A stretch of DNA of 64,000 nucleotides from Flexivirga endophytica. Lineage in GTDB: Bacteria; Actinomycetota; Actinomycetes; Actinomycetales; Dermatophilaceae. This document shows, one piece after another, positions 18,704 through 45,687 of the stretch. Positions within the stretch are counted from its first letter, which is position 1. Each line of letters begins with the position of its first letter. Both the position numbers and the translations under genes were made by a program. The DNA is taken from assembly GCF_014640635.1 (NCBI RefSeq), contig NZ_BMHI01000005.1, forward strand, positions 558,001-622,000, read 5' to 3'. The notes below the pieces were generated by a model. It had not been told where the DNA came from, ran no database searches, and was given only the letters and a program-made list of their open reading frames with translations.

Positions 18704-19557
18704 TGGCCCAGGCGAGCGTCGCGCGTCCGCGGATGCGGAAACGACAGCGGCCCAATGTGGTGGGCGGCCTGCTCGGCTTCTTCTGGCTGGTCCTGATCAT
18801 CGGCCCGATCTACTACGTGGTGATCACCAGCCTGAAGGACCAGGCGGACTACTACTCCTCGAATGCTCTTGGCATCCCGACCAATCCGACTCTGCGTGCT
18901 TACCGGATCGTGCTGCAGAACGACTTCCTGCACTACTTCATCAACAGCCTGATCGTCGCTGTGGTGACGGTGGCGGTGGTCGTCGCGATCTCGCTGATGG
19001 CCAGCTACGTCATCGTGCGCAGGTCGTCCAGGATCGTGCACCTGTCGCAGCGGGTGTTCCTGCTCGGCATCGCGATCCCGATCCAGGCGACGATCGTGCC
19101 GGTCTACTACTTGATCGTGCAGTTGCACCTCTACGACACGTTGCCCGCGCTCATCCTGCCGGGCATCGCGTTCGCGATCCCGATCACCGTGCTGATCCTG
19201 GTCAACTACCTGCGCGACATACCCAACGAGTTGTACGACTCGATGCACGCGGACGGCGCGAGCGACTGGCGGACGTTCATCAGCCTGGTGCTGCCCCTGT
19301 CCAAACCGGCCATCACGACGGTGGCGATCTATGACGCGCTGAACTGCTGGAACGGCTTCCTCTTCCCACTGATCCTGACCCAGAGCGAGGACAAGCGGAC
19401 CCTGCCGCTGTCGCTGTGGAGCTACCAGGGCGAATTCAATTCGGACATCCCGGCCGTGCTGGCCGCCATCGTGCTGTCGTGCCTGCCGATCCTGGCGGCA
19501 TACATCATCGGGCGCCGTCAGCTGGTCGCGGGCCTGACCGCCGGCTTCGGAAAGTGA
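18703..19557 (+). CDS. Sugar ABC transporter permease, MalG-type
   Basis: 284 residues, six membrane segments, EAA loop YDSMHADGASDWRTFISLVLPLSKPAI in pieces near residue 185. GGAGGG lies seven bases before the ATG at 18703; a GTG at 18700 is an alternative. It overlaps the end of the first permease and is followed three bases later by the GH3 gene, so import and hydrolysis are produced together. Confidence 0.9.
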   Translation: MAQASVARPRMRKRQRPNVVGGLLGFFWLVLIIGPIYYVVITSLKDQADYYSSNALGIPTNPTLRAYRIVLQNDFLHYFINSLIVAVVTVAVVVAISLMASYVIVRRSSRIVHLSQRVFLLGIAIPIQATIVPVYYLIVQLHLYDTLPALILPGIAFAIPITVLILVNYLRDIPNELYDSMHADGASDWRTFISLVLPLSKPAITTVAIYDALNCWNGFLFPLILTQSEDKRTLPLSLWSYQGEFNSDIPAVLAAIVLSCLPILAAYIIGRRQLVAGLTAGFGK

Positions 19558-28856: not shown

Positions 28857-31178
28857 GTGACAAGACGCGTCTTCAAGACGGTCGCCGGGACGACGGCATT
28901 CGCCGCCACGGCGTCCTTCGCCATCGCAGGGCTTACCCAGCCCGCCGATGCACAGGCGGTGCCTTCGGCCGGACCCGGCCTCACGCACCGCGCCGACAAT
29001 CTGCCCAACCCCCGCGCTGAGCGACAGGCTGCCGAACGCAAGGCGGCCGTCAACAAGCTGATCAAGGGCGAGGCCAAGGTCAAGACGATCGATGGCAAGA
29101 AGGTCATCGAGCTGCAGGCGCCGGAATCGGCTGCGAAGCAGGGCAAGCGCGGCAAGGGCACCCAGCCCAAGAAGGGGAAGTACGTCCAGTACGACCCGAA
29201 CCAGTCGACCAAGATCTTCACCACTCTCGCCGAGTTCGGTGACAAGACCAAGGACGCGACGGGTGGTTCGGCCGGACCGCTGCACAACGCCATCCCGAAA
29301 CCGGATCGCACCGAGAACAACTCGACCTACTGGGTGGACGACTTCAACCAGGCGCACTACGACGAACTCTTCAACGGGACCGGCGAGTCGTTCAAGAACT
29401 TCTACAAGGACCAGTCGCTGGGCCGCTTCGACGTGTCCACCACGGTGAGCGACTGGGTGAAGGTGCCCTACAACGAGGCGCGCTACGGGCACAACCCGGT
29501 CAAGGGTGACGGCACCAGCGAGGCCGAGGGCTACTGGTCCTTCGTCAACGACTCGCTGACGTCCTGGTACAACAAGCAGATCGAGTCCGGCAAGACCAAG
29601 GACGAGGTCAAGGAAGAGCTCAAGCAGTTCGACACCTGGGACCGCTACGACTTCGACGGTGACGGCGACTTCAACGAGCCCGACGGCTACATCGACCACT
29701 ACGAGGCGTTGCATGCAGGTGAGGGCGAGGAGGCCGGTGGCGGCGCGGAGGGCGAGGACGCCATCTGGTCGCACCGCTGGGCCGTGCAGTCCGGTTACGG
29801 CACGACGGGACCGCAGGGCAACAAGTCCGGTGGTGTCCAGATCGGCGACACGGGGATCTGGGTCTCCGACTACACCACCGAGCCGGAGAACGGCGGACTC
29901 GGTGTGTTCACACACGAATTCGGACACGACCTGGGCCTGCCGGACCTCTACGACACCTCCGGCGGCGGCGACAACACGGTCGGCTTCTGGAGCCTGATGA
30001 GCAGTGGCTCGTGGCTCAACCACGGCGAGGACGCCATCGGCACGACGCCCGGCTACATGGATGCGTGGTCCAAGGTTCAGCTCGGCTGGGCGGACCTGCA
30101 GACCGTGAAGTACGGCGACGACTCCGAGGTGCACCTCGGCCCGGCCGACATGGACAACGCGAAGGAGCCCCAGGCCCTCGCAGTCAGCCTGCCGGACAAG
30201 GAGATCACCACCGACTACAACACCCCGAAGTCGGGTTCGTACGAATGGTGGAGCGGCAGCGCTGACAACCTGAACACGACCCTCTCCCGGGAGATCGACC
30301 TCAGCGGAGCGTCGTCGGCCTCGGTCTCGGCGGCCGCCTGGTACGACATCGAGCAGGACTACGACTTCCTCTACGGTCAGGTGTCGACCGACGGCGGGTC
30401 CACCTGGACCAACGTCGGTGACGGTGTGACCGGGACCAAGAAGGAGTGGACCTCGGTCAACTTCGACCTGGCGCCGTATGTCGGCAAGAAGGTGCTCTTC
30501 CGGTTCGCCTACCAGACCGACGGTGGCGTGCACAACGACGGCGCCTTCCTCGACGACCTGGCAGTGACCATCGACGGCACGACCACCACCGATGATGTCG
30601 AGTCGACCGAATCCGTCTGGACCGCAGACGGATTCACCCGCATGACCGGCAGCAACACCGTCACGGCCGCGCACTACTACCTGGCCGAGTCCCGTCGCTA
30701 CTCCGGTTACGACTCCACGCTGAAGACCGGTCCGTACAACTTCGGCTTCAGCCCCGAGAAGCCGGACTGGGTGGAGCACTACCCCTACCAGGACGGCCTG
30801 CTGGTCTGGTACGTCGACAACGAGTTCGAGGACAACAACACCTCGGTGCACCCGGGCCGCGGTCTGGTGCTGCCGGTCGACGCCCACCCGGTCCCGACCG
30901 TGTGGAAGACCGGCGAGGTCGCTTCCAACCGGATCCAGTCCTATGACTCGACCTTCGGCACGAGCAAGACCGACAAGTTCACGCTGCACCGCAAGGGCAC
31001 GACGCTGCAGATGCCGAAGAAGGCGGGCATCCCGCTGTTCGACGACTCGCGGACCAACGCCTACTGGTCGGCCGAGAACCCGACCGGTTCGGTGAAGGTC
31101 GCCGGCACCGGCACGCAGATCGCCGTCAAGCACAAGCAGGGCGACGGACTGCTGCTGCAGGTGAAGTTCACCAAGTAA
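28857..31178 (+). CDS. Secreted M6-family metalloprotease (immune inhibitor A-like)
   Basis: 773 residues from a GTG with GGAGGA upstream. Signal peptide: MTRRVFKTVAGTTAFAAT, then a hydrophobic run ending near ADAQA. A charged pro-region (about 35-110) precedes the M6 catalytic domain; zinc site HEFGHDLGLPD at about residue 354-364 supplies two His, the Glu and the later Asp. Acidic DFDGDGDFNEPDG near 265 resembles a calcium loop. The C-terminal half includes jelly-roll-like segments (YDIEQDYDFLYGQVSTDGG). It should degrade extracellular protein. Tyr codons are almost all TAC and the window motif is absent from most of the gene. Confidence 0.92.
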   Translation: MTRRVFKTVAGTTAFAATASFAIAGLTQPADAQAVPSAGPGLTHRADNLPNPRAERQAAERKAAVNKLIKGEAKVKTIDGKKVIELQAPESAAKQGKRGKGTQPKKGKYVQYDPNQSTKIFTTLAEFGDKTKDATGGSAGPLHNAIPKPDRTENNSTYWVDDFNQAHYDELFNGTGESFKNFYKDQSLGRFDVSTTVSDWVKVPYNEARYGHNPVKGDGTSEAEGYWSFVNDSLTSWYNKQIESGKTKDEVKEELKQFDTWDRYDFDGDGDFNEPDGYIDHYEALHAGEGEEAGGGAEGEDAIWSHRWAVQSGYGTTGPQGNKSGGVQIGDTGIWVSDYTTEPENGGLGVFTHEFGHDLGLPDLYDTSGGGDNTVGFWSLMSSGSWLNHGEDAIGTTPGYMDAWSKVQLGWADLQTVKYGDDSEVHLGPADMDNAKEPQALAVSLPDKEITTDYNTPKSGSYEWWSGSADNLNTTLSREIDLSGASSASVSAAAWYDIEQDYDFLYGQVSTDGGSTWTNVGDGVTGTKKEWTSVNFDLAPYVGKKVLFRFAYQTDGGVHNDGAFLDDLAVTIDGTTTTDDVESTESVWTADGFTRMTGSNTVTAAHYYLAESRRYSGYDSTLKTGPYNFGFSPEKPDWVEHYPYQDGLLVWYVDNEFEDNNTSVHPGRGLVLPVDAHPVPTVWKTGEVASNRIQSYDSTFGTSKTDKFTLHRKGTTLQMPKKAGIPLFDDSRTNAYWSAENPTGSVKVAGTGTQIAVKHKQGDGLLLQVKFTK

Positions 31179-31250: not shown

Positions 31251-31592
31251 TCAGTCAGTGGTGCGACCTGGGTCGTCCGCGACGGTCGCGTCGGACAGGC
31301 GCTCCAGAGCGGTGGACCAGTAGTCGCCATACCGCTGCACCCAGGGGGCGAAGGCGGCGCGCCAGCCGTCCCGGTCGATCTCGTAGTGCTGGTTGCGACC
31401 GTCCTTGCGGGCCCGGACCAGGCCGGCCGCTCGCAGCGTCATCAGGTGCTTGGAGATGCCAGAGGCGACCAGTTCGGGGAACGCGGCCGCGAGCTCACCG
31501 ACGGTGAGCGTGCCGCGCTCGGCCAGCAGGTCGAGCATGCTGCGACGCGTCGGGTCGGCGATGGCCCGGAACGGATCGACCTGCTCGGTCAT
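31251..31592 (-). CDS. ArsR-family winged-helix regulator
   Basis: 113 residues. Compact winged-helix protein with the start MTEQVDPFRAIADPTRRSMLDLLAERG and recognition helix region VASGISKHLMTLRAAGLV. No metal-binding Cys cluster, so it belongs to the non-metal ArsR branch often paired with an AHSA1/START protein. Its ATG overlaps the stop of that partner (ATGA). A palindromic operator lies before the pair, consistent with autoregulation. Confidence 0.88.
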   Translation of the reverse strand: MTEQVDPFRAIADPTRRSMLDLLAERGTLTVGELAAAFPELVASGISKHLMTLRAAGLVRARKDGRNQHYEIDRDGWRAAFAPWVQRYGDYWSTALERLSDATVADDPGRTTD

Positions 31593-32017
31593 GCGGCTGT
31601 CACGACGGCGTCGGTCAGCCGCTCGAGGACGGGGTGCCGCTCGAGGCCGCGCTCGTATGCCGCCTCGGCGCGCTCCCACGTCGGCGTGCCGATGCCGGCG
31701 AAACCGTCGTGGGTGAGGGTGACCGCGGTCTGCTCGCCGCCGCCTTCCAATGCGATCGTCAAACGGCCGGGGTGCATCCAGCCGGCGTCCTCCTCGAGCC
31801 AGGACAGGACGAAGAGCTTCTCCGGCTCGAACTCGAGCACGACGCCGCTGATCCACGTTCCTCCGTCGCCGCCCAGCATGCGGTAGGCGCCGCCACGACG
31901 CAGGTCGATCGTGATGTCCGCCGACAGCCACCTGCGCAGGCCCTCCGCGGAGGTGAACTGGCGCCATACAGCGGCGGTGTCGCGCGGGATGGTGATGGTC
32001 CGGGTGACGGTGGGCAT
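31589..32017 (-). CDS. SRPBCC/AHSA1-domain protein
   Basis: 142 residues. START-like lipid- or small-ligand-binding fold of the activator-of-Hsp90 (AHSA1) group: MPTVTRTITIPRDTAAVWRQF, LRRGGAYRML, LSWLEEDAG. First gene of a two-gene operon with the ArsR regulator. Start at 32017 is preceded by GGAGAG. Upstream in-frame codons to 32071 read through the operator and are rejected. Ligand unknown. Confidence 0.85.
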   Translation of the reverse strand: MPTVTRTITIPRDTAAVWRQFTSAEGLRRWLSADITIDLRRGGAYRMLGGDGGTWISGVVLEFEPEKLFVLSWLEEDAGWMHPGRLTIALEGGGEQTAVTLTHDGFAGIGTPTWERAEAAYERGLERHPVLERLTDAVVTAA

Positions 32018-32027
32018 GGTCTCTCCT

Positions 32028-32066
32028 TCATCAATTACCAAGTAGTAATATATTACTATCAGGTAA
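32028..32066. promoter_or_regulatory. AT-rich palindromic operator of the ArsR/AHSA1 pair
   Basis: TAGTAATATATTACTA (32043-32058) is a perfect 16-bp palindrome, flanked by matching ATTACC on the left and GGTAAT on the right, so the dyad spans over 30 bp. It stands out sharply in GC-rich DNA and lies directly before the AHSA1 start. Most likely the ArsR binding site. Confidence 0.72.
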
Positions 32067-32115
32067 TGCATCGGGTCGCAAGACCCGCTGTGCTCGAGTA
32101 AGGCAGGATTCGGTT

Positions 32116-32175
32116 ATGGATCGACAGCATGAGTCTCATGGGACCGAGCAACCCGCCGCGACCGTGCGCGATTGA
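32116..32175 (+). CDS. 19-codon leader ORF mimicking the glnA2 start
   Basis: ATG GAT CGA CAG CAT GAG begins a reading frame of 19 codons ending in TGA at 32173-32175, inside the start of the glnA2 ribosome site (GAGGAGG, 32174-32180). Its first residues, MDRQHE, copy those of glnA2 (MDRQQE), because TTATGGATCGACA occurs at both places. It could be a true leader peptide or the fossil of a duplicated 5' end. Confidence 0.4.
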   Translation: MDRQHESHGTEQPAATVRD

Positions 32176-32189
32176 GGAGGACCCAACTT

Positions 32190-33527
32190 ATGGATCGACA
32201 ACAGGAATACGTCCTCCGGACGATCGAGGAACGCGACATCCGGTTCATCCGACTGTGGTTCACCGACGTGCTGGGCACGCTGAAGTCGGTGGCCGTGGCG
32301 CCGGCCGAGCTGGACGGAGCCTTCGCCGAGGGCATCGGATTCGACGGCAGCTCCATCGAAGGACTGGCCCGGGTCTACGAGTCCGACATGCTGGTGCTAC
32401 CCGACGCGGACACTTTCCAGGTGCTGCCGTGGCGCGGTGAAAATCCGGCGACCGCGAGGATGTTCTGCGACATCCGGCTGCCCGACGGCTCGGCGAGCAT
32501 GGCAGACCCGCGATACGTCCTGCAGCGTGCGCTGGGCAAGGCCGCGGACAAGGGACTGACCTTCTACACCCACCCGGAGATCGAGTTCTACCTCTTCGAG
32601 AAGGACATCCAGCCCGGCCGGCCGCCGGTGCCGGTCGACAACTCCGGTTTTTTCGACCACGTCCCGCACGGCACCGGCCATGACTTCCGGCGCTCGGCGA
32701 TCACTCTGCTGGAGCAGATGGGCATTTCGGTGGAGTTCTCGCACCATGAGGCCGGGCCGGGCCAGAACGAGATCGACCTGCGGTATGCCGACGCCCTGAC
32801 GACCGCCGACAACATCATGACGTTCCGGACGGTCATCAAGGAGGTCGCGCTCGAGCAGGGTGTCTTCGCTTCGTTCATGCCCAAGCCGCTGGCCGACGCG
32901 CCAGGGTCCGGCATGCACACGCACGTCTCGCTCTTCGAGGAGGACCGCAACGCGTTCTTCGAGGCCGGTGCGCCATACCAACTGTCAAAGATGGCAAGGA
33001 GTTTCATCGCCGGCATCCTGCACCACGCGGGGGAGATCAGCGCGGTGACCAACCAGTGGGTCAACTCCTACAAGCGGATCTGGAGCGGCGCCGAAGCGCC
33101 GGCGCACGTGTGCTGGGGTCACAACAACCGCAGCGCGATGGTGCGGGTGCCGATGTACAAGCCGTCCAAGGGGCAGAGCTCACGCGTCGAGGTGCGATCC
33201 ATCGACTCCTCGGCCAACCCCTACCTCACCTACGCGGTGCTGCTGGCCGCCGGCATGAAGGGCGTCGACGAGGGCTACGAACTTCCGCCGGAGGCGGAGG
33301 ACAACGTCTGGGCGCTCACCGACCGGGAGTTGCGCGCCATGGGCATCGAGCCGCTGCCGGCGTCGTTGGATCACGCCATCCACCTGATGGAGCACAGTGA
33401 GCTGGTCGCCGAGACGCTCGGCGAGCACGTCTTCGACTTCTTCCTGCGCAACAAGCGCGCCGAGTGGGCGGCATACCGCGACCAGGTCACGCAGTACGAG
33501 CTGGATCGATACCTGGGCACGTTGTGA
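32190..33527 (+). CDS. glnA2: Glutamine synthetase, GlnA2 type
   Basis: 445 residues. ATP-dependent ligation of ammonia (or another amine) to glutamate. Signatures: GFDGSSIEG near residue 55, THPEIEFYLF near 130, FMPKPLADAPGSGMH near 230 and NRSAMVRVP near 315. It is paired with glnE exactly as glnA2-glnE in mycobacteria. The start at 32190 has GAGGAGG at ideal spacing; an in-frame codon at 32172 precedes that site and is rejected. In Streptomyces several GlnA-like paralogues act on polyamines, so glutamine synthesis is probable, not proven. Confidence 0.92.
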   Translation: MDRQQEYVLRTIEERDIRFIRLWFTDVLGTLKSVAVAPAELDGAFAEGIGFDGSSIEGLARVYESDMLVLPDADTFQVLPWRGENPATARMFCDIRLPDGSASMADPRYVLQRALGKAADKGLTFYTHPEIEFYLFEKDIQPGRPPVPVDNSGFFDHVPHGTGHDFRRSAITLLEQMGISVEFSHHEAGPGQNEIDLRYADALTTADNIMTFRTVIKEVALEQGVFASFMPKPLADAPGSGMHTHVSLFEEDRNAFFEAGAPYQLSKMARSFIAGILHHAGEISAVTNQWVNSYKRIWSGAEAPAHVCWGHNNRSAMVRVPMYKPSKGQSSRVEVRSIDSSANPYLTYAVLLAAGMKGVDEGYELPPEAEDNVWALTDRELRAMGIEPLPASLDHAIHLMEHSELVAETLGEHVFDFFLRNKRAEWAAYRDQVTQYELDRYLGTL

Positions 33528-36526
33528 CCGCGGAGAGCCCTGCAGTCTCCCGCTCCGTGCTGGCGCGCGCCGGATTCACCGAGGTGGAGCGCGCGCAGGG
33601 CATGGTCGGCGATCTCCGGATCGCACCCGAGCTGGTCGATGCGGCGGTCGCATCGCTGGCGCAGGCGGCCTCGCCGGACCATGCACTGCTCGGGCTCGTC
33701 CGACTGGGCGAAGTGCTGTCGGACAGCGAGAATCACCGGATAGCAACGCTCTTCACCGACGACAGGGACGGTTGGGACCGTCTGGTCCGCTTGCTCGGAG
33801 CATCAACGGCACTGACCGATCACCTGGTGCGGCACCCGGAGCATTGGCCGGACGTGGTGGCCGCGGAGGTGCGCGGTCGCGATGCGTTGTATGCCGCGCT
33901 GAGTGACAGCGTCGGGGACACCACCGGCACCGATGCGTATGACGCGCTGCGCGTCGCCTACTACCGGCAACTGCTGCAGATCGCAGCGGTCGACCTGACC
34001 GACGACCCGGTGGAGCAGTTCCCGATGATCTCCGAGGCGCTCTCGGAGCTGGCCGGTGCGGCGATCGCGGCGGCATTACGGATCGCGACCAACACCGTCG
34101 AGGACTCGGACACGTGCCGGATGACGGTCATCGGCATGGGCAAGTGCGGCGGGCTGGAGCTCAACTACATCAGCGACGTCGACGTCATCTTCGTCTGCGA
34201 GCCGGCCGACGGGGTCGACGAGGCCGATGCACTGACCGTCGGCAACAAGCTCGCCGCCGAGGTGATGCGGGCGTGCTCCGAGGCGACCGGCGAGGGATCG
34301 CTGTGGCCGGTGGATCCCGCGCTACGCCCGGAGGGCAAGCAGGGACCGCTGGTTCGGTCGGTGGAGTCGCATCGCGCCTACTACGAGCGGTGGGCCAAGA
34401 CCTGGGAGTTCCAGGCGCTGCTCAAGGCCCGGCCGATCGCCGGCGACGCGGAGGTCGGCGAGGCCTACCTCGACGCGATCCGGCCGCTGATCTGGCGCGC
34501 AGCGGACCGTGACCACTTCGTCGAGGACGTGCAGGCGATGCGGCGACGGGTCGAGGACCACGTGCCGCAGGCCGAGGTCGGCCGCCAGTTGAAGCTCGGT
34601 CCCGGTGGCTTGCGCGACATCGAGTTCAGTGTGCAGCTGCTCCAGTTGGTGCACGGTCGCACCGATGAGCGGCTGCGTGATCGCGGGACGCTCGCGGCCA
34701 TGGCCTCGTTGTCCCGCGGCGGTTACATCGGCCGTGTCGACGCGCACGATCTGGACCAGGCCTACCGCCGGTTGCGCGTGCTGGAGCACCGCATCCAGTT
34801 GTCCCGCATGCGGCGGTCCCACCTGATCCCGAACAGCTCCGCCGACCTGCGGGTGCTGGGCCGCTCCATAGGCTTGCGGGCCAACCCCGAGACCGACGTC
34901 GTCAAGCAGTGGCGCGAGCGCGCTGCGCAGGTCCGCCGATTGCACGAGCGGATCTTCTACCGGCCGTTGCTGTCGGCGGTCGCCAACCTGTCCCGCGACG
35001 ACGCCCGGCTGAGCCCGGCAAGCGCGCAGGATCGCTTCGCAGCATTGGGTTTTCGAGATGCCAAGGGCGCGGTGCGCCACATGGAGGCGCTCACCTCGGG
35101 TGTCAGCCGACGTGCCGCGATCCAGCGCACCCTGCTGCCGGTGATGCTCCAGTGGTTCGCCGAGGAGGTCGACCCCGACCTGGGGTTGCTCGCCTTCCGC
35201 AAGCTCAGCGACGCGCTCGGGACGACGCACTGGTTCCTGAAGATGCTGCGAGACGAGGGGCGTGCGGCGGAGACGCTGGCCAAGGCTCTGGCCAGCAGCC
35301 GGTATGTCGGTCAACTGCTCGAGAACGCCCCCTCCGCGGTAAGGATCTTCGGCTCCACGCACGCGTTGCGGCCGCTGACCCGCGACCAGTTGCTGACCGT
35401 GATGCGCGCCGCGGTCGACCGGCAACCGCAGGACGACGACGCGGCGCTGCTGGCGGTCCGCTCCGCACGCCGCACGGAGTTGATCCGCATCGCCGTCGCC
35501 GACCTGACCGGCAAGCTGGAGCTCGACGCGGTCGAGAGAGCGTTGACGGACCTGGCCTCCGCGACCCTGCAGGGCACGCTGGAGCTGGCCATCCGGCACG
35601 TCGAGAAGGAGACGCACACGACGATCTCGACCGGCATCTCGATCATCGGCATGGGCCGTCTCGGCGGCGGCGAGATGGGCTATTCCTCGGACGCGGACGT
35701 GATCTTCGTGCACGATCCGCTGCCGGACGCGGATCCCCAGCTCGCGCAGAGCCAGGCGGAGGAGGTCGTGACCTTCCTCAGCACGGGTCTGAGCGCGGGC
35801 GGGCCGGATCCCGCCCTGGTCGTGGACGCCGATCTGCGCCCGGAGGGCAAGGCCGGTCCGATCGTGCGAACGCTCGCGTCATACGCGGCCTATTACGAGC
35901 GGTGGTCCGAAGGTTGGGAGTCACAGGCTCTGCTGCGAGCGGCGCCGATCGCCGGTGACGAAGAGCTGGGCGTCAGCTTCCGTGCGCTGATCGATCCGTT
36001 GCGGTGGCCGGAAGGCGGCATCGACGAGAAGGCGGTCCGCGCGATCCGGATGCTGAAGGCACGGATGGAGGCCGAGCGATTGCCGCGTGGTGGCGATGTC
36101 CGCACGCACTTCAAGCTCGGTCGAGGAGGTCTGTCGGACGTCGAATGGACGGTGCAACTGGCGCAGCTGCAGCACGCGCACGACATCCCGGCGTTGCGGC
36201 ACACCGGCACGACGACTCCGTTGCGCGCGATGGTCGAGCACGGCCTGATCGAGGCAGACGACGCCGACCATCTGCGCGAGTCGTGGACGCTGGCCAGCCG
36301 GCTGCGCAACGCCTCGGTGCTCTGGCGCGGCCGGCCGGTCGACTCGCTGCCCGGTGCGCTCGCCGACGCCGATGGCATCGCGCGGATCCTCGGGTCCCCG
36401 GTCGGTTCGGGGTATCAGTTGTCCGACCGCTACCTGAAGGTGTCCCGGCGGGCACGTGAGGTGGTGGAGCGCGAGTTCTACGGCACCGACCCCGATGACG
36501 AGCGTGACACCGACCCGACCCGCTGA
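33524..36526 (+). CDS. glnE: Bifunctional glutamine synthetase adenylyltransferase/deadenylase
   Basis: 1000 residues. Adds AMP to, and removes it from, glutamine synthetase. Two nucleotidyltransferase domains are evident: GGLELNYISDVDVIFV near residue 208 and GGGEMGYSSDADVIFV near 722, each followed by PVDPALRPEGKQGP or VVDADLRPEGKAGP and a helical GlnD-like UR domain. The GTG overlaps the glnA2 stop (GTGA), giving translational coupling. The ORF start upstream is inside glnA2 and rejected. The end overlaps the convergent gene by 49 bp. Confidence 0.95.
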   Translation: MTAESPAVSRSVLARAGFTEVERAQGMVGDLRIAPELVDAAVASLAQAASPDHALLGLVRLGEVLSDSENHRIATLFTDDRDGWDRLVRLLGASTALTDHLVRHPEHWPDVVAAEVRGRDALYAALSDSVGDTTGTDAYDALRVAYYRQLLQIAAVDLTDDPVEQFPMISEALSELAGAAIAAALRIATNTVEDSDTCRMTVIGMGKCGGLELNYISDVDVIFVCEPADGVDEADALTVGNKLAAEVMRACSEATGEGSLWPVDPALRPEGKQGPLVRSVESHRAYYERWAKTWEFQALLKARPIAGDAEVGEAYLDAIRPLIWRAADRDHFVEDVQAMRRRVEDHVPQAEVGRQLKLGPGGLRDIEFSVQLLQLVHGRTDERLRDRGTLAAMASLSRGGYIGRVDAHDLDQAYRRLRVLEHRIQLSRMRRSHLIPNSSADLRVLGRSIGLRANPETDVVKQWRERAAQVRRLHERIFYRPLLSAVANLSRDDARLSPASAQDRFAALGFRDAKGAVRHMEALTSGVSRRAAIQRTLLPVMLQWFAEEVDPDLGLLAFRKLSDALGTTHWFLKMLRDEGRAAETLAKALASSRYVGQLLENAPSAVRIFGSTHALRPLTRDQLLTVMRAAVDRQPQDDDAALLAVRSARRTELIRIAVADLTGKLELDAVERALTDLASATLQGTLELAIRHVEKETHTTISTGISIIGMGRLGGGEMGYSSDADVIFVHDPLPDADPQLAQSQAEEVVTFLSTGLSAGGPDPALVVDADLRPEGKAGPIVRTLASYAAYYERWSEGWESQALLRAAPIAGDEELGVSFRALIDPLRWPEGGIDEKAVRAIRMLKARMEAERLPRGGDVRTHFKLGRGGLSDVEWTVQLAQLQHAHDIPALRHTGTTTPLRAMVEHGLIEADDADHLRESWTLASRLRNASVLWRGRPVDSLPGALADADGIARILGSPVGSGYQLSDRYLKVSRRAREVVEREFYGTDPDDERDTDPTR

Positions 36527-43345: not shown

Positions 43346-44815
43346 TCAGTGGGTGGCCGGTAGGTCGTCGCGGGCCCGCCTTGGCAACAGGAAGGTCAGC
43401 GCGAAGGCGACCACCATCGCTCCTATCGCAACCCAGGTCGTGATCTGCGTCGCGTGACCGAAGGAGTCGGCCACGGAGGCTCCGTGACCGTCGACCTGTC
43501 CGAAGAACACGGTGCCCAGGACTGCGACACCGAGTGCACTGCCGATCTGCTGGACCGCAGTCATCGACCCGGATGCTGACCCTGATTCCTGGTCCTCGAC
43601 CCCACTCATGACGATGTCGAAGAACGGAGTCATCGCCATACCCATGCCGGTGCCGATCAGGGTCAGCGCGGGCGCGAGACGTAGTGCGTCGATCGATGCG
43701 CCCGACCAGCTGATGGTCGCCACGAGGACTCCGAGGCCCGCGATGACCACGAGGTAGCCGAGGTGCATCGTGGTCCGGCCGATCCTGGCGGTCAGTGGTT
43801 GTCCGATTCCGAAGCCGACAATCATGGCGACCGCCTGCGGGATGGCGGTCAGACCTGCTTGCAACGGCGTGTAGTGCAGGCCGAGCTGCAGGTAGAGCGT
43901 CAGCACCAGCGACGAGCCCATCAGCGCGCTGAAGAACGCCAATCCGGTGATGAGCCCGCCGGTGAACGCGCGCTTGGTGAACAGTGACGGCACCACGAGC
44001 GTCGAACGACCTGCCCGGTCCCTGCTGCGCTCGAGAAATGCGAAGGCGACGAATGCGAGCAGGCCCGCGGTGAACATTACGAAACACCAGAGCGGCCAGT
44101 CGTGTTCGCGTCCTTGCACCAATGGGTAGACCAGCAGGAACATCCCCGCGGCAGCGAGTATCACGCCGGAGACGTCGAGGCCCAGGCTCCGGTCGGGACG
44201 GTTCTTCGGCAGGTAGCGCACGGCGCCGACGATGCCGATGATTCCGATCGGGATGTTGATCGCGAAGATTGCGCGCCAGCCGAGCCCGAGCAGGTCGGCG
44301 TCGATCAGCCAGCCCGCCAGGATCGGCCCGCCGACCGCACCGATGCCCATGATCGGACCGAATGCACCGAACGCTTTCGCGCGTTCTGCGGGCGGAAACA
44401 TCTCATTGATGATGCCCAGGCCCTGTGGCAGCAGTGTCGCGCCGAGCAATCCCTGCAGGGCGCGGCTGGTGATCAACATTGTCGGGTCCTGGGCGGCCGC
44501 GCACAGTAAGGAGAAGAGCGTGAAGCCCGCCATCCCGATGAGGAACATCCGCTTGCGTCCGAACATGTCGCCGAGGCGTCCGCCGATGAGCAGTCCGGCC
44601 GCCATGGCAAGTGTGTAACCCGCCGAGAGCCACTGGATGGTGACGCCGCCGCCACCCAGCTCGTCGGTGATGGTCGGCCCGGCGATGCTCGTGACGAGGG
44701 CATCGAGCAGATCCATCACCTCGGCGGACAGTACGACCAGCAATGCGAGCCAGCGCCACCGGTATGCCGGAGAGGTTGCGTCGGCGCTCCCCGGTGGGGC
44801 AAGTTGCACTGTCAT
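43346..44815 (-). CDS. DHA2-family MFS drug exporter under TetR control
   Basis: 489 residues, about 14 membrane helices. GGRLGDMFGRKRMFLIGM near residue 78 (motif A) and RALQGLLGATLLPQGLGIINE near 113 (motif C-like). Divergent from the TetR gene, with three operator copies in the 116 bp between them. Presumed drug or toxicant efflux; substrate unknown. Confidence 0.9.
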   Translation of the reverse strand: MTVQLAPPGSADATSPAYRWRWLALLVVLSAEVMDLLDALVTSIAGPTITDELGGGGVTIQWLSAGYTLAMAAGLLIGGRLGDMFGRKRMFLIGMAGFTLFSLLCAAAQDPTMLITSRALQGLLGATLLPQGLGIINEMFPPAERAKAFGAFGPIMGIGAVGGPILAGWLIDADLLGLGWRAIFAINIPIGIIGIVGAVRYLPKNRPDRSLGLDVSGVILAAAGMFLLVYPLVQGREHDWPLWCFVMFTAGLLAFVAFAFLERSRDRAGRSTLVVPSLFTKRAFTGGLITGLAFFSALMGSSLVLTLYLQLGLHYTPLQAGLTAIPQAVAMIVGFGIGQPLTARIGRTTMHLGYLVVIAGLGVLVATISWSGASIDALRLAPALTLIGTGMGMAMTPFFDIVMSGVEDQESGSASGSMTAVQQIGSALGVAVLGTVFFGQVDGHGASVADSFGHATQITTWVAIGAMVVAFALTFLLPRRARDDLPATH

Positions 44816-44860
44816 GAGACATGTCCCTTCACGTATGGGATGAGGAGATCGCGAGATGGA

Positions 44861-44912
44861 CGAACAGTGTTCGCGATAACACGAACACTGTTCTACGCAC
44901 GAACAGTGTTCG
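44861..44912. promoter_or_regulatory. Triplicate TetR operator
   Basis: Three copies of the odd palindrome CGAACA-N-TGTTCG: 44861-44873 (centre G), 44882-44894 (centre C, the opposite orientation, last base T) and 44900-44912 (centre G). Centres lie 21 and 18 bp apart, near two helical turns. They sit between the exporter start (44815) and the TetR ATG (44932), so one repressor would control both. Confidence 0.85.
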
Positions 44913-44931
44913 TGTCAAGTACGGTGCTCGT

Positions 44932-45687
44932 ATGCCGATGGACGAACTTCCGCCCGCACCGTGGCGGCAACCGAAGAAGGCCGCCCGCCCGAAGCGAACC
45001 GACAAGCCCGCGCTGAGCCGCGAGGCGATCGTGGCGAAGGCGCTGGACATCATTGACGCAGAGGGCGTCGATGCGGTCAGCATGCGTCGTGTCGCGACAG
45101 AATTCGGCACAGGCGCAGCGAGCCTCTACGCCCATGTCGCGGGCAAGAGCGAGCTACTCGCGGCGGCCTACGAGCTGGCGCTCACTGAGGTGGACGACCC
45201 CGACCCCGACCAGCCGTGGCAGGACATGCTGCGCGAATTCGCCTGGGGGATGTACCAATTGCTGCGGCGGCACCGCGATCTGGCCAAGCTGAGCTTTGCC
45301 GACATACCCACGGGCCCTCGGGCGCTGGACGGCGTGGAGAAGATGCTGTCGACGATGATCGATCAGGGGGTCTCACCGCGGGATGCCACGTGGCTCTTCG
45401 ACCGCCTGGCCCTCTACATCGGTGCCGACGCGTTCGAGGGCCATGTGTTGCGTGAGCGCTTCGGTGCCGCTGATGGCGACGACGCTGCCGCGCTCAAGGC
45501 GGGCACGGAGTGGATCGAGCAGGTTCGTGGCTACTTCGCGCAGCTTCCTCCCGAGCGCTACCCGACGGTCACGGCCAATCTCGACGTGATGATGAACGGC
45601 GACAGCGAGGAGCGTTTCTCGTTCGGCGTCGAGGTGCTGATCGCCGGGATCGAGGCGCGCAACCCCGCATCCCGGGCCAAGCGCTGA
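44932..45687 (+). CDS. TetR/AcrR-family repressor
   Basis: 251 residues. Basic N-terminus (PWRQPKKAARPKR), helix-turn-helix MRRVATEFGTGAASLYAHVAGKSELL in pieces at about 53-78, and a TetR-class C-terminal ligand domain. The ATG at 44932 is chosen since the longer frame from 44821 translates the operator array; a second ATG follows at 44938. Divergent from the DHA2 exporter it presumably represses. Confidence 0.88.
   Translation: MPMDELPPAPWRQPKKAARPKRTDKPALSREAIVAKALDIIDAEGVDAVSMRRVATEFGTGAASLYAHVAGKSELLAAAYELALTEVDDPDPDQPWQDMLREFAWGMYQLLRRHRDLAKLSFADIPTGPRALDGVEKMLSTMIDQGVSPRDATWLFDRLALYIGADAFEGHVLRERFGAADGDDAAALKAGTEWIEQVRGYFAQLPPERYPTVTANLDVMMNGDSEERFSFGVEVLIAGIEARNPASRAKR

Follow-up and report, generated by a model that had tools for sequence, protein, structure and literature searches.

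The glnA2 locus

The window, by which we mean the whole 64,000-nucleotide stretch of Flexivirga endophytica DNA that was analysed, contains a gene of the glutamine synthetase family (glnA2), the gene of a glutamine synthetase adenylyltransferase (glnE), which overlaps its end, and a short leader ORF opened by an upstream copy of the glnA2 start region. The features concerned, all of them on the forward strand, are the following:

32104..32109, + strand: CAGGAT, the presumed -10 box, 6 nt 5' of the first ATG, recognised from the pattern of the relatives
32114..32132, + strand: start repeat, first copy, from the repeat search
32116..32175, + strand: leader ORF of 19 codons, reading MDRQHESHGTEQPAATVRD and a stop, opened by the first repeat copy; presumed former leaderless start of glnA2
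32133..32187, + strand: the 55 nt that separate the repeat copies, without significant match to glnA2, to the flanks or elsewhere in five genomes of the genus
32174..32180, + strand: GAGGAGG, the Shine-Dalgarno (SD) site of glnA2, which shares bases with the stop codon of the leader ORF; read from the sequence and also found in a second species of the genus, G001
32188..32206, + strand: start repeat, second copy, containing the glnA2 start codon, from the repeat search
32190..33527, + strand: glnA2, 445 aa, type I glutamine synthetase family, from translation, NCBIfam and Pfam
33524..36526, + strand: glnE, glutamine synthetase adenylyltransferase, from NF010707 (1325 bits; cut-off 625)

The GlnA2 protein of the window narrowly passes the NCBIfam GlnA model TIGR00653 (441.6 bits; cut-off 429.15) and scores below the cut-off of the gamma-glutamylputrescine synthetase model NF045547 (314; cut-off 650). 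Matches of 72-74% to Streptomyces loci lead us to take the gene as the orthologue of S. coelicolor SCO2241; the role of the enzyme is uncertain because this orthology is presumed, with those matches as its support. In Streptomyces coelicolor, GlnA2 (SCO2241) has been reported as a gamma-glutamylpolyamine synthetase (PMC8998196), and this report renders uncertain the initial description of the window gene as a nitrogen-assimilation enzyme, which the narrow GlnA pass supports. A viral-contig scan with GlnA2 returned 0 matches to the patterns of the scan. Downstream, the glnA2 stop codon overlaps the likely GTG start of glnE, itself inferred, as GTGA (33524-33527), and the two genes may be translationally coupled through this overlap.

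A duplicated start region

The first-pass annotation had described a repeat at 32114 and 32188 and a 19-codon ORF opened by its first copy, and both are real and exactly placed. In the window, TTATGGATCGACA has mismatch-free copies at these two positions only, with two further matches that carry two mismatches each, and the repeat grows to 19 nt at 89% identity with a start-to-start spacing of 74. A distance of 74 nt is not divisible by 3, which puts the leader ORF and glnA2 in different reading frames. The leader ORF closes with a TGA (32173-32175) that runs into the beginning of GAGGAGG (32174-32180); from the end of this motif it is 9 nt to the glnA2 ATG (32190).

A search for 13-mers repeated within 150 nt gave seven matches at five separate places in the window, while first-order Markov surrogates (n=60) had a mean of 0.57 such matches, with at least one in 19 of the 60 and a maximum of five. 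Taken alone, the bare 13-nt repeat is thus mildly unusual and departs from chance slightly. It is placed beyond chance by what it consists of, as both copies are a start codon with the N-terminal codons of glnA2, and by where it lies, as the first copy sits on the conserved box of the family and the same layout is found in a second species. An assembly error is an unlikely cause of the repeat, because G001, a separate genome, has the identical layout.

The box before the glnA2 start in relatives

The DNA upstream of the start was compared in 30 loci, namely the window and 29 relatives listed from 57 matching genomes (58 searched). A box of the form NA[GCA][GA]AT stands 6-7 nt 5' of the glnA2 ATG in 27 of the 30, and in 24 of these 27 it reads CAGGAT or TAGGAT; the strict form TANNNT is found at 4/30 loci. 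The three loci without a box at the glnA2 start are the window, G001 (L006) and L032, in which the start codon is GTG. SD-like strings lie within 22 nt of the start at six loci, comprising these same three and L014, L029 and L030, where string and box occur together. Across the family, the pattern AGGAT-N5-8-ATG with the first codons of glnA2 was recovered from 150 of 186 genomes (137 of the 162 genomes of good quality, and 43 of 53 genera), with 0 matches for the reversed-pattern control among the matches listed; there was no match in 36/186 genomes, in a search that is blind to other boxes and to other start codons.

According to published work, leaderless genes in Actinobacteria are marked by a -10 type box some 10-12 nt ahead of the start codon (PMC3160421), and for M. 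tuberculosis 73% of the primary transcription starts have been reported to have a TANNNT motif centred 7-12 nt on their 5' side (PMC3898074). By its sequence and placement, the AGGAT box located 5-8 nt before the glnA2 ATG in the family is a putative leaderless-mRNA signature. As in the TA-led leaderless genes of Actinobacteria described in that work (PMC3160421), glnA2 of most relatives compared carries a box, usually CAGGAT or TAGGAT, about 10-12 nt before its start, and as a rule lacks an SD-like string; unlike in those genes, the box of the window and of G001 precedes the leader ORF, and glnA2 is now SD-led, the SD site having taken the place of the box before the ATG at 32190. The family pattern falls on the first ATG in both genomes and not on that of glnA2, the match in the window's genome (G000 C5:590105) corresponding to window position 32105. 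The earlier reading overlooked this main point, which is that the first ATG stands where, on the sequence comparison, glnA2 of the relatives starts. The CAGGAT of the window does not conform to TANNNT in its strict form, and scanning 31900-32400 with a sigma-70 consensus returned 0 promoters. In a wider set of 80 loci a loose box is present in 23, and it was not used to judge the leaderless state in other orders; this set was put aside because many of its box matches are purine-rich Streptomyces strings, possibly SD sites.

A separate element, [GT][TA]NAC-N6-GAAAC, which we take to be a GlnR-like motif, lies at a fixed distance of about 38-39 nt before the leaderless glnA2 ATG in 7 of the 30 loci (L015, L021, L022, L026, L027, L030 and L033), where shuffles expect 0.01; among the 30 loci checked, the window is one from which it is absent. 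For S. coelicolor glnA2, published work reports a gTnAc motif and describes a band shift with GlnR when the amount of protein was raised, a previous experiment having been negative (PMC8998196).

Origin, age and direction of the duplication

Most likely, what opens the leader ORF is the former leaderless start of glnA2, which a duplication-insertion of 74 nt has separated from its gene. As a rule, glnA2 of the family would be leaderless, with a -10 type box 6-7 nt before the ATG and an mRNA that begins with AUG. The duplication-insertion would have taken place in an ancestor shared by some members of the genus. It would have added a copy of the first codons, and the old start would have stayed at the promoter, where it would now open an ORF of 19 codons in the window and 22 codons in G001, the enzyme being made from the second, SD-led start.

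The duplicated glnA2 start is found in 2 of the 186 family genomes, both belonging to the genus of the window; a search of 396 genomes sampled from the order, for which the pattern was altered, gave one match, in the window's own genome. Conservation in sister species is mixed, as one of the four congeners compared (G001) has the duplicated layout and the others (G002, G003 and G004) have the plain one. The 74-nt spacing is common to the window and G001, as are a TCT codon after MDRQ(H/Q)E and the GAGGAGG before the second ATG, and the glnA2 genes of the two are 87.5% identical in DNA and 69.7% identical at third codon positions. Because genes this far apart carry the same layout, the duplication is not recent, and of the recent small duplication proposed initially it is the duplication that stands and the recency that does not.

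In a tree built for seven genomes from 2174 columns of GlnA2, GlnE and two other protein frames (candidate frames g4 and g6 were left out on account of stops in some genomes), G001 and G002 form a group (ultrafast bootstrap 97) and the window's genome comes next. A topology that joins G001 to the window's genome is rejected (AU p 0.0015), and one that joins G002 to it is disfavoured (0.023). With a single origin, the layout must predate the split of the window's species, G001 and G002 and have been lost in G002, and the tree favours such an older gain followed by loss; deletion from one direct repeat to the other would bring back exactly the plain layout of G002.

The grouping of G001 with G002, and not with the window's species, would also fit two separate duplications, one in the window's species and one in G001, or a transfer between them, with no loss in G002, and the middle of the leader has no significant similarity between the two. 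As to the source of this middle part, local alignment of leader nt 20-74 from the two species to glnA2 nt 1-200, to the upstream DNA and to the reverse strand in four genomes gave a lowest p of 0.034 in 24 comparisons. When the 74-nt leader was searched for in five genomes of the genus, no further copy turned up (best non-self E 0.006). The G001 leader was not among the matches listed in G001, and the case for a common origin is therefore built on the position and spacing of the two starts, on the junction and on the start codons. The spacing, TCT codon and GAGGAGG common to both leaders, together with the confinement of the layout to two family genomes of one genus, speak against separate events, which we regard as rather unlikely.

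Starting from a single origin, a broader proposal may be put forward tentatively, as something possible and short of probable: the duplication of a start region could act as a reversible switch between leaderless and leadered states. One event would have made glnA2 SD-led and coupled to a leaderless mini-ORF of its own first codons, a later deletion between the repeats would have restored the leaderless state in G002, and upstream ORFs in actinobacteria could in this way be born from the genes that they precede.

Conservation within the leader

Comparison of the window with G001, without gaps, gave 13 of 14 identical sites in the promoter block GAGTARGGCAGGAT and 22 of 28 in leader nt 1-28, while the stretch from 80 to 40 nt 5' of the first ATG is identical at 9 of 40 sites and leader nt 29-74 at 18 of 46. 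The box and the start of the ORF are therefore kept between the two genomes, and the tail of the ORF is not. The ORFs differ in length, as given above, and end at differing sites, 14 nt (window) and 5 nt (G001) 5' of the glnA2 ATG. On a rough and post hoc estimate, the chance of a first stop within the last eight codons is about 0.14 per leader of the window's composition, and the closeness of both stops to the glnA2 start is suggestive only. GC3 is 0.61 in the leader ORF of the window and 0.81 in that of G001, and 0.90 in both glnA2 genes; the low value of the window ORF in comparison with its gene gives no sign of codon selection.

The poorly kept ORF tail and the low GC3 would be expected if the old start and its ORF were simply left over, with transcription beginning elsewhere or the ORF being translated without effect, and with glnA2 relying on ordinary SD initiation. 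The leader having been lost, or never having been there, in G002 fits this as well, as does an mRNA fold of the leader region no better than that of shuffles (z 0.04). A mere leftover accords poorly with a promoter block and an ORF start that are kept while the DNA upstream differs, and with ORFs that in both species stop no more than 14 nt from the glnA2 start, for which the rough, post hoc chance applies to one leader; we consider it unlikely.

Predicted translation of the leader and coupling to glnA2

We judge it probable that a leaderless glnA2 start gave rise, by duplication, to a leader ORF and an SD-led glnA2 connected by leaderless-translation coupling, which may be of either sign and of any size. 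RNA polymerase would still start at the first AUG, so that the 5' end of the mRNA is probably the A of 32116, and a 70S ribosome would initiate at this 5'-terminal AUG, as in mycobacterial mRNAs that begin with AUG, whose leaderless translation has been reported (PMC4633059). The ribosome would then terminate at or beside the SD site, feeding or gating glnA2 by re-initiation or local supply, in a manner largely independent of the sequence of the leader peptide. Leaderless initiation, termination beside the SD site and coupling are all expected from mycobacterial and E. coli precedents. The initial suggestion that the leader ORF competes with or couples to glnA2 initiation is thus plausible from the layout of both species, with their stops 14 and 5 nt before the ATG.

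The Gln and His codons of the leader had been put forward as a control signal, and this part of the earlier reading is not supported. Attenuation or stalling at a leader peptide that senses glutamine or histidine charging could be suspected from the two Gln and two His among the 19 codons and from the adjoining downstream gene of glutamine metabolism. However, one Gln and one His fall in the first six codons and belong to the MDRQxE start common to the ORF and GlnA2; beyond MDRQxE, the ORF of G001 has no Gln and one His, and the tails differ. Moreover, the window leader has neither a run of Gln or His codons nor the terminator or SD-hiding structure that would accompany such a run in an amino-acid attenuator. 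Rfam gave 0 matches, including to the glutamine riboswitch, on both strands of 31900-32400 at E up to 1, no terminator-like site was found on the + strand of the same interval, and the fold gives no signal. Sensing of this kind is extremely improbable.

In the predicted fold of 32116-32229, a 7-bp stem joins GGAGGAC of the SD region to GUCCUCC among the early codons of glnA2, and a classical coupling hairpin could be read from it, in which the SD site is hidden until ribosomes that finish the leader open it. This fold is the one that equals the shuffles, two shorter stretches fold otherwise, and the matching stretch of G001 glnA2 is GTACTGCGG, which is unable to form the stem; the hairpin is very unlikely and was dropped, as it is not conserved in G001.

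Relation to known systems

In E. coli, ORFs opened by a 5'-terminal AUG upstream of SD-led genes (5'-uAUG) have been described, e.g. on the ptrB, rcnR and mngR mRNAs (PMC4965119), and removal of the 5'-uAUG changed the downstream output by -93% (ptrB) to +52% (mngR) among the cases considered. The window resembles these (PMC4965119) in that a predicted 5'-end AUG opens a short ORF before an SD-led gene, and glnA2 has its own SD site and start, in G001 as well. It differs from them, as far as they are described in that source, in that the 5' end is predicted and the upstream ORF begins with the same codons as the gene downstream, apparently through duplication of that gene's own start.

In M. 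tuberculosis, 268 novel leaderless ORFs have been reported to be short ORFs (PMC9094748), and for mycobacteria leaderless small ORFs upstream of genes are described, with a peptide-independent delivery of ribosomes being proposed (PMC4633059, PMC9094748). The window likewise has a short, predicted-leaderless ORF beside an SD-led gene, as in the systems of these reports. Unlike the mycobacterial cysteine-rich attenuators as presented there, its ORF is not of the cysteine-rich type, appears to derive from the downstream gene and is present in two genomes among those compared. The architecture of the leader ORF is thus already known, and its putative origin from the start of its own gene would be the new element. 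Among the matches listed from the open-licence literature, none was found to describe a leader ORF that arose when a leaderless gene had its own start duplicated.

Leaderless and SD-led orthologues coexist in bacteria, and the steps in between are rarely visible. For one gene, a single genus here offers a leaderless layout, an SD-led layout with the old start in place and perhaps a return, each of which could be measured for its cost and gain. The locus would be a natural test case for the passage from leaderless to ordinary genes, and perhaps back. A further suggestion is that a leader ORF can be what remains of its own gene's start, and not a sensor, which calls for caution in reading its codon content as a signal.

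Neighbouring genes and other features of the window

Between a gene for an M6-type peptidase (28857-31178, + strand) and glnA2 lie the genes of an ArsR-type regulator (31251-31595, - strand) and of an AHSA1/SRPBCC protein (31589-32017, - strand). A homologue of the peptidase is found directly upstream of glnA2 in G002, G003, G004 and G007, and G001, where the leader duplication is present, has upstream genes other than those of the window. Before the SRPBCC gene, a 17-nt inverted repeat with 82% complementarity (32034-32067) could be an operator of the ArsR-type regulator.

Elsewhere in the window, copies of a repeat, TCGCGATCCCGATC, are located at 19070 and 19172 (window 19070-19185). Three ACGAACAGTGTTCG-like palindrome copies (44860-44913) lie between the gene of a TetR-like regulator (ORF 44821-45687, + strand) and a divergent DHA2-type MFS transporter gene (43346-44815, - strand; 228.8 bits, just under the cut-off of 230.2), and they are likely an operator array.
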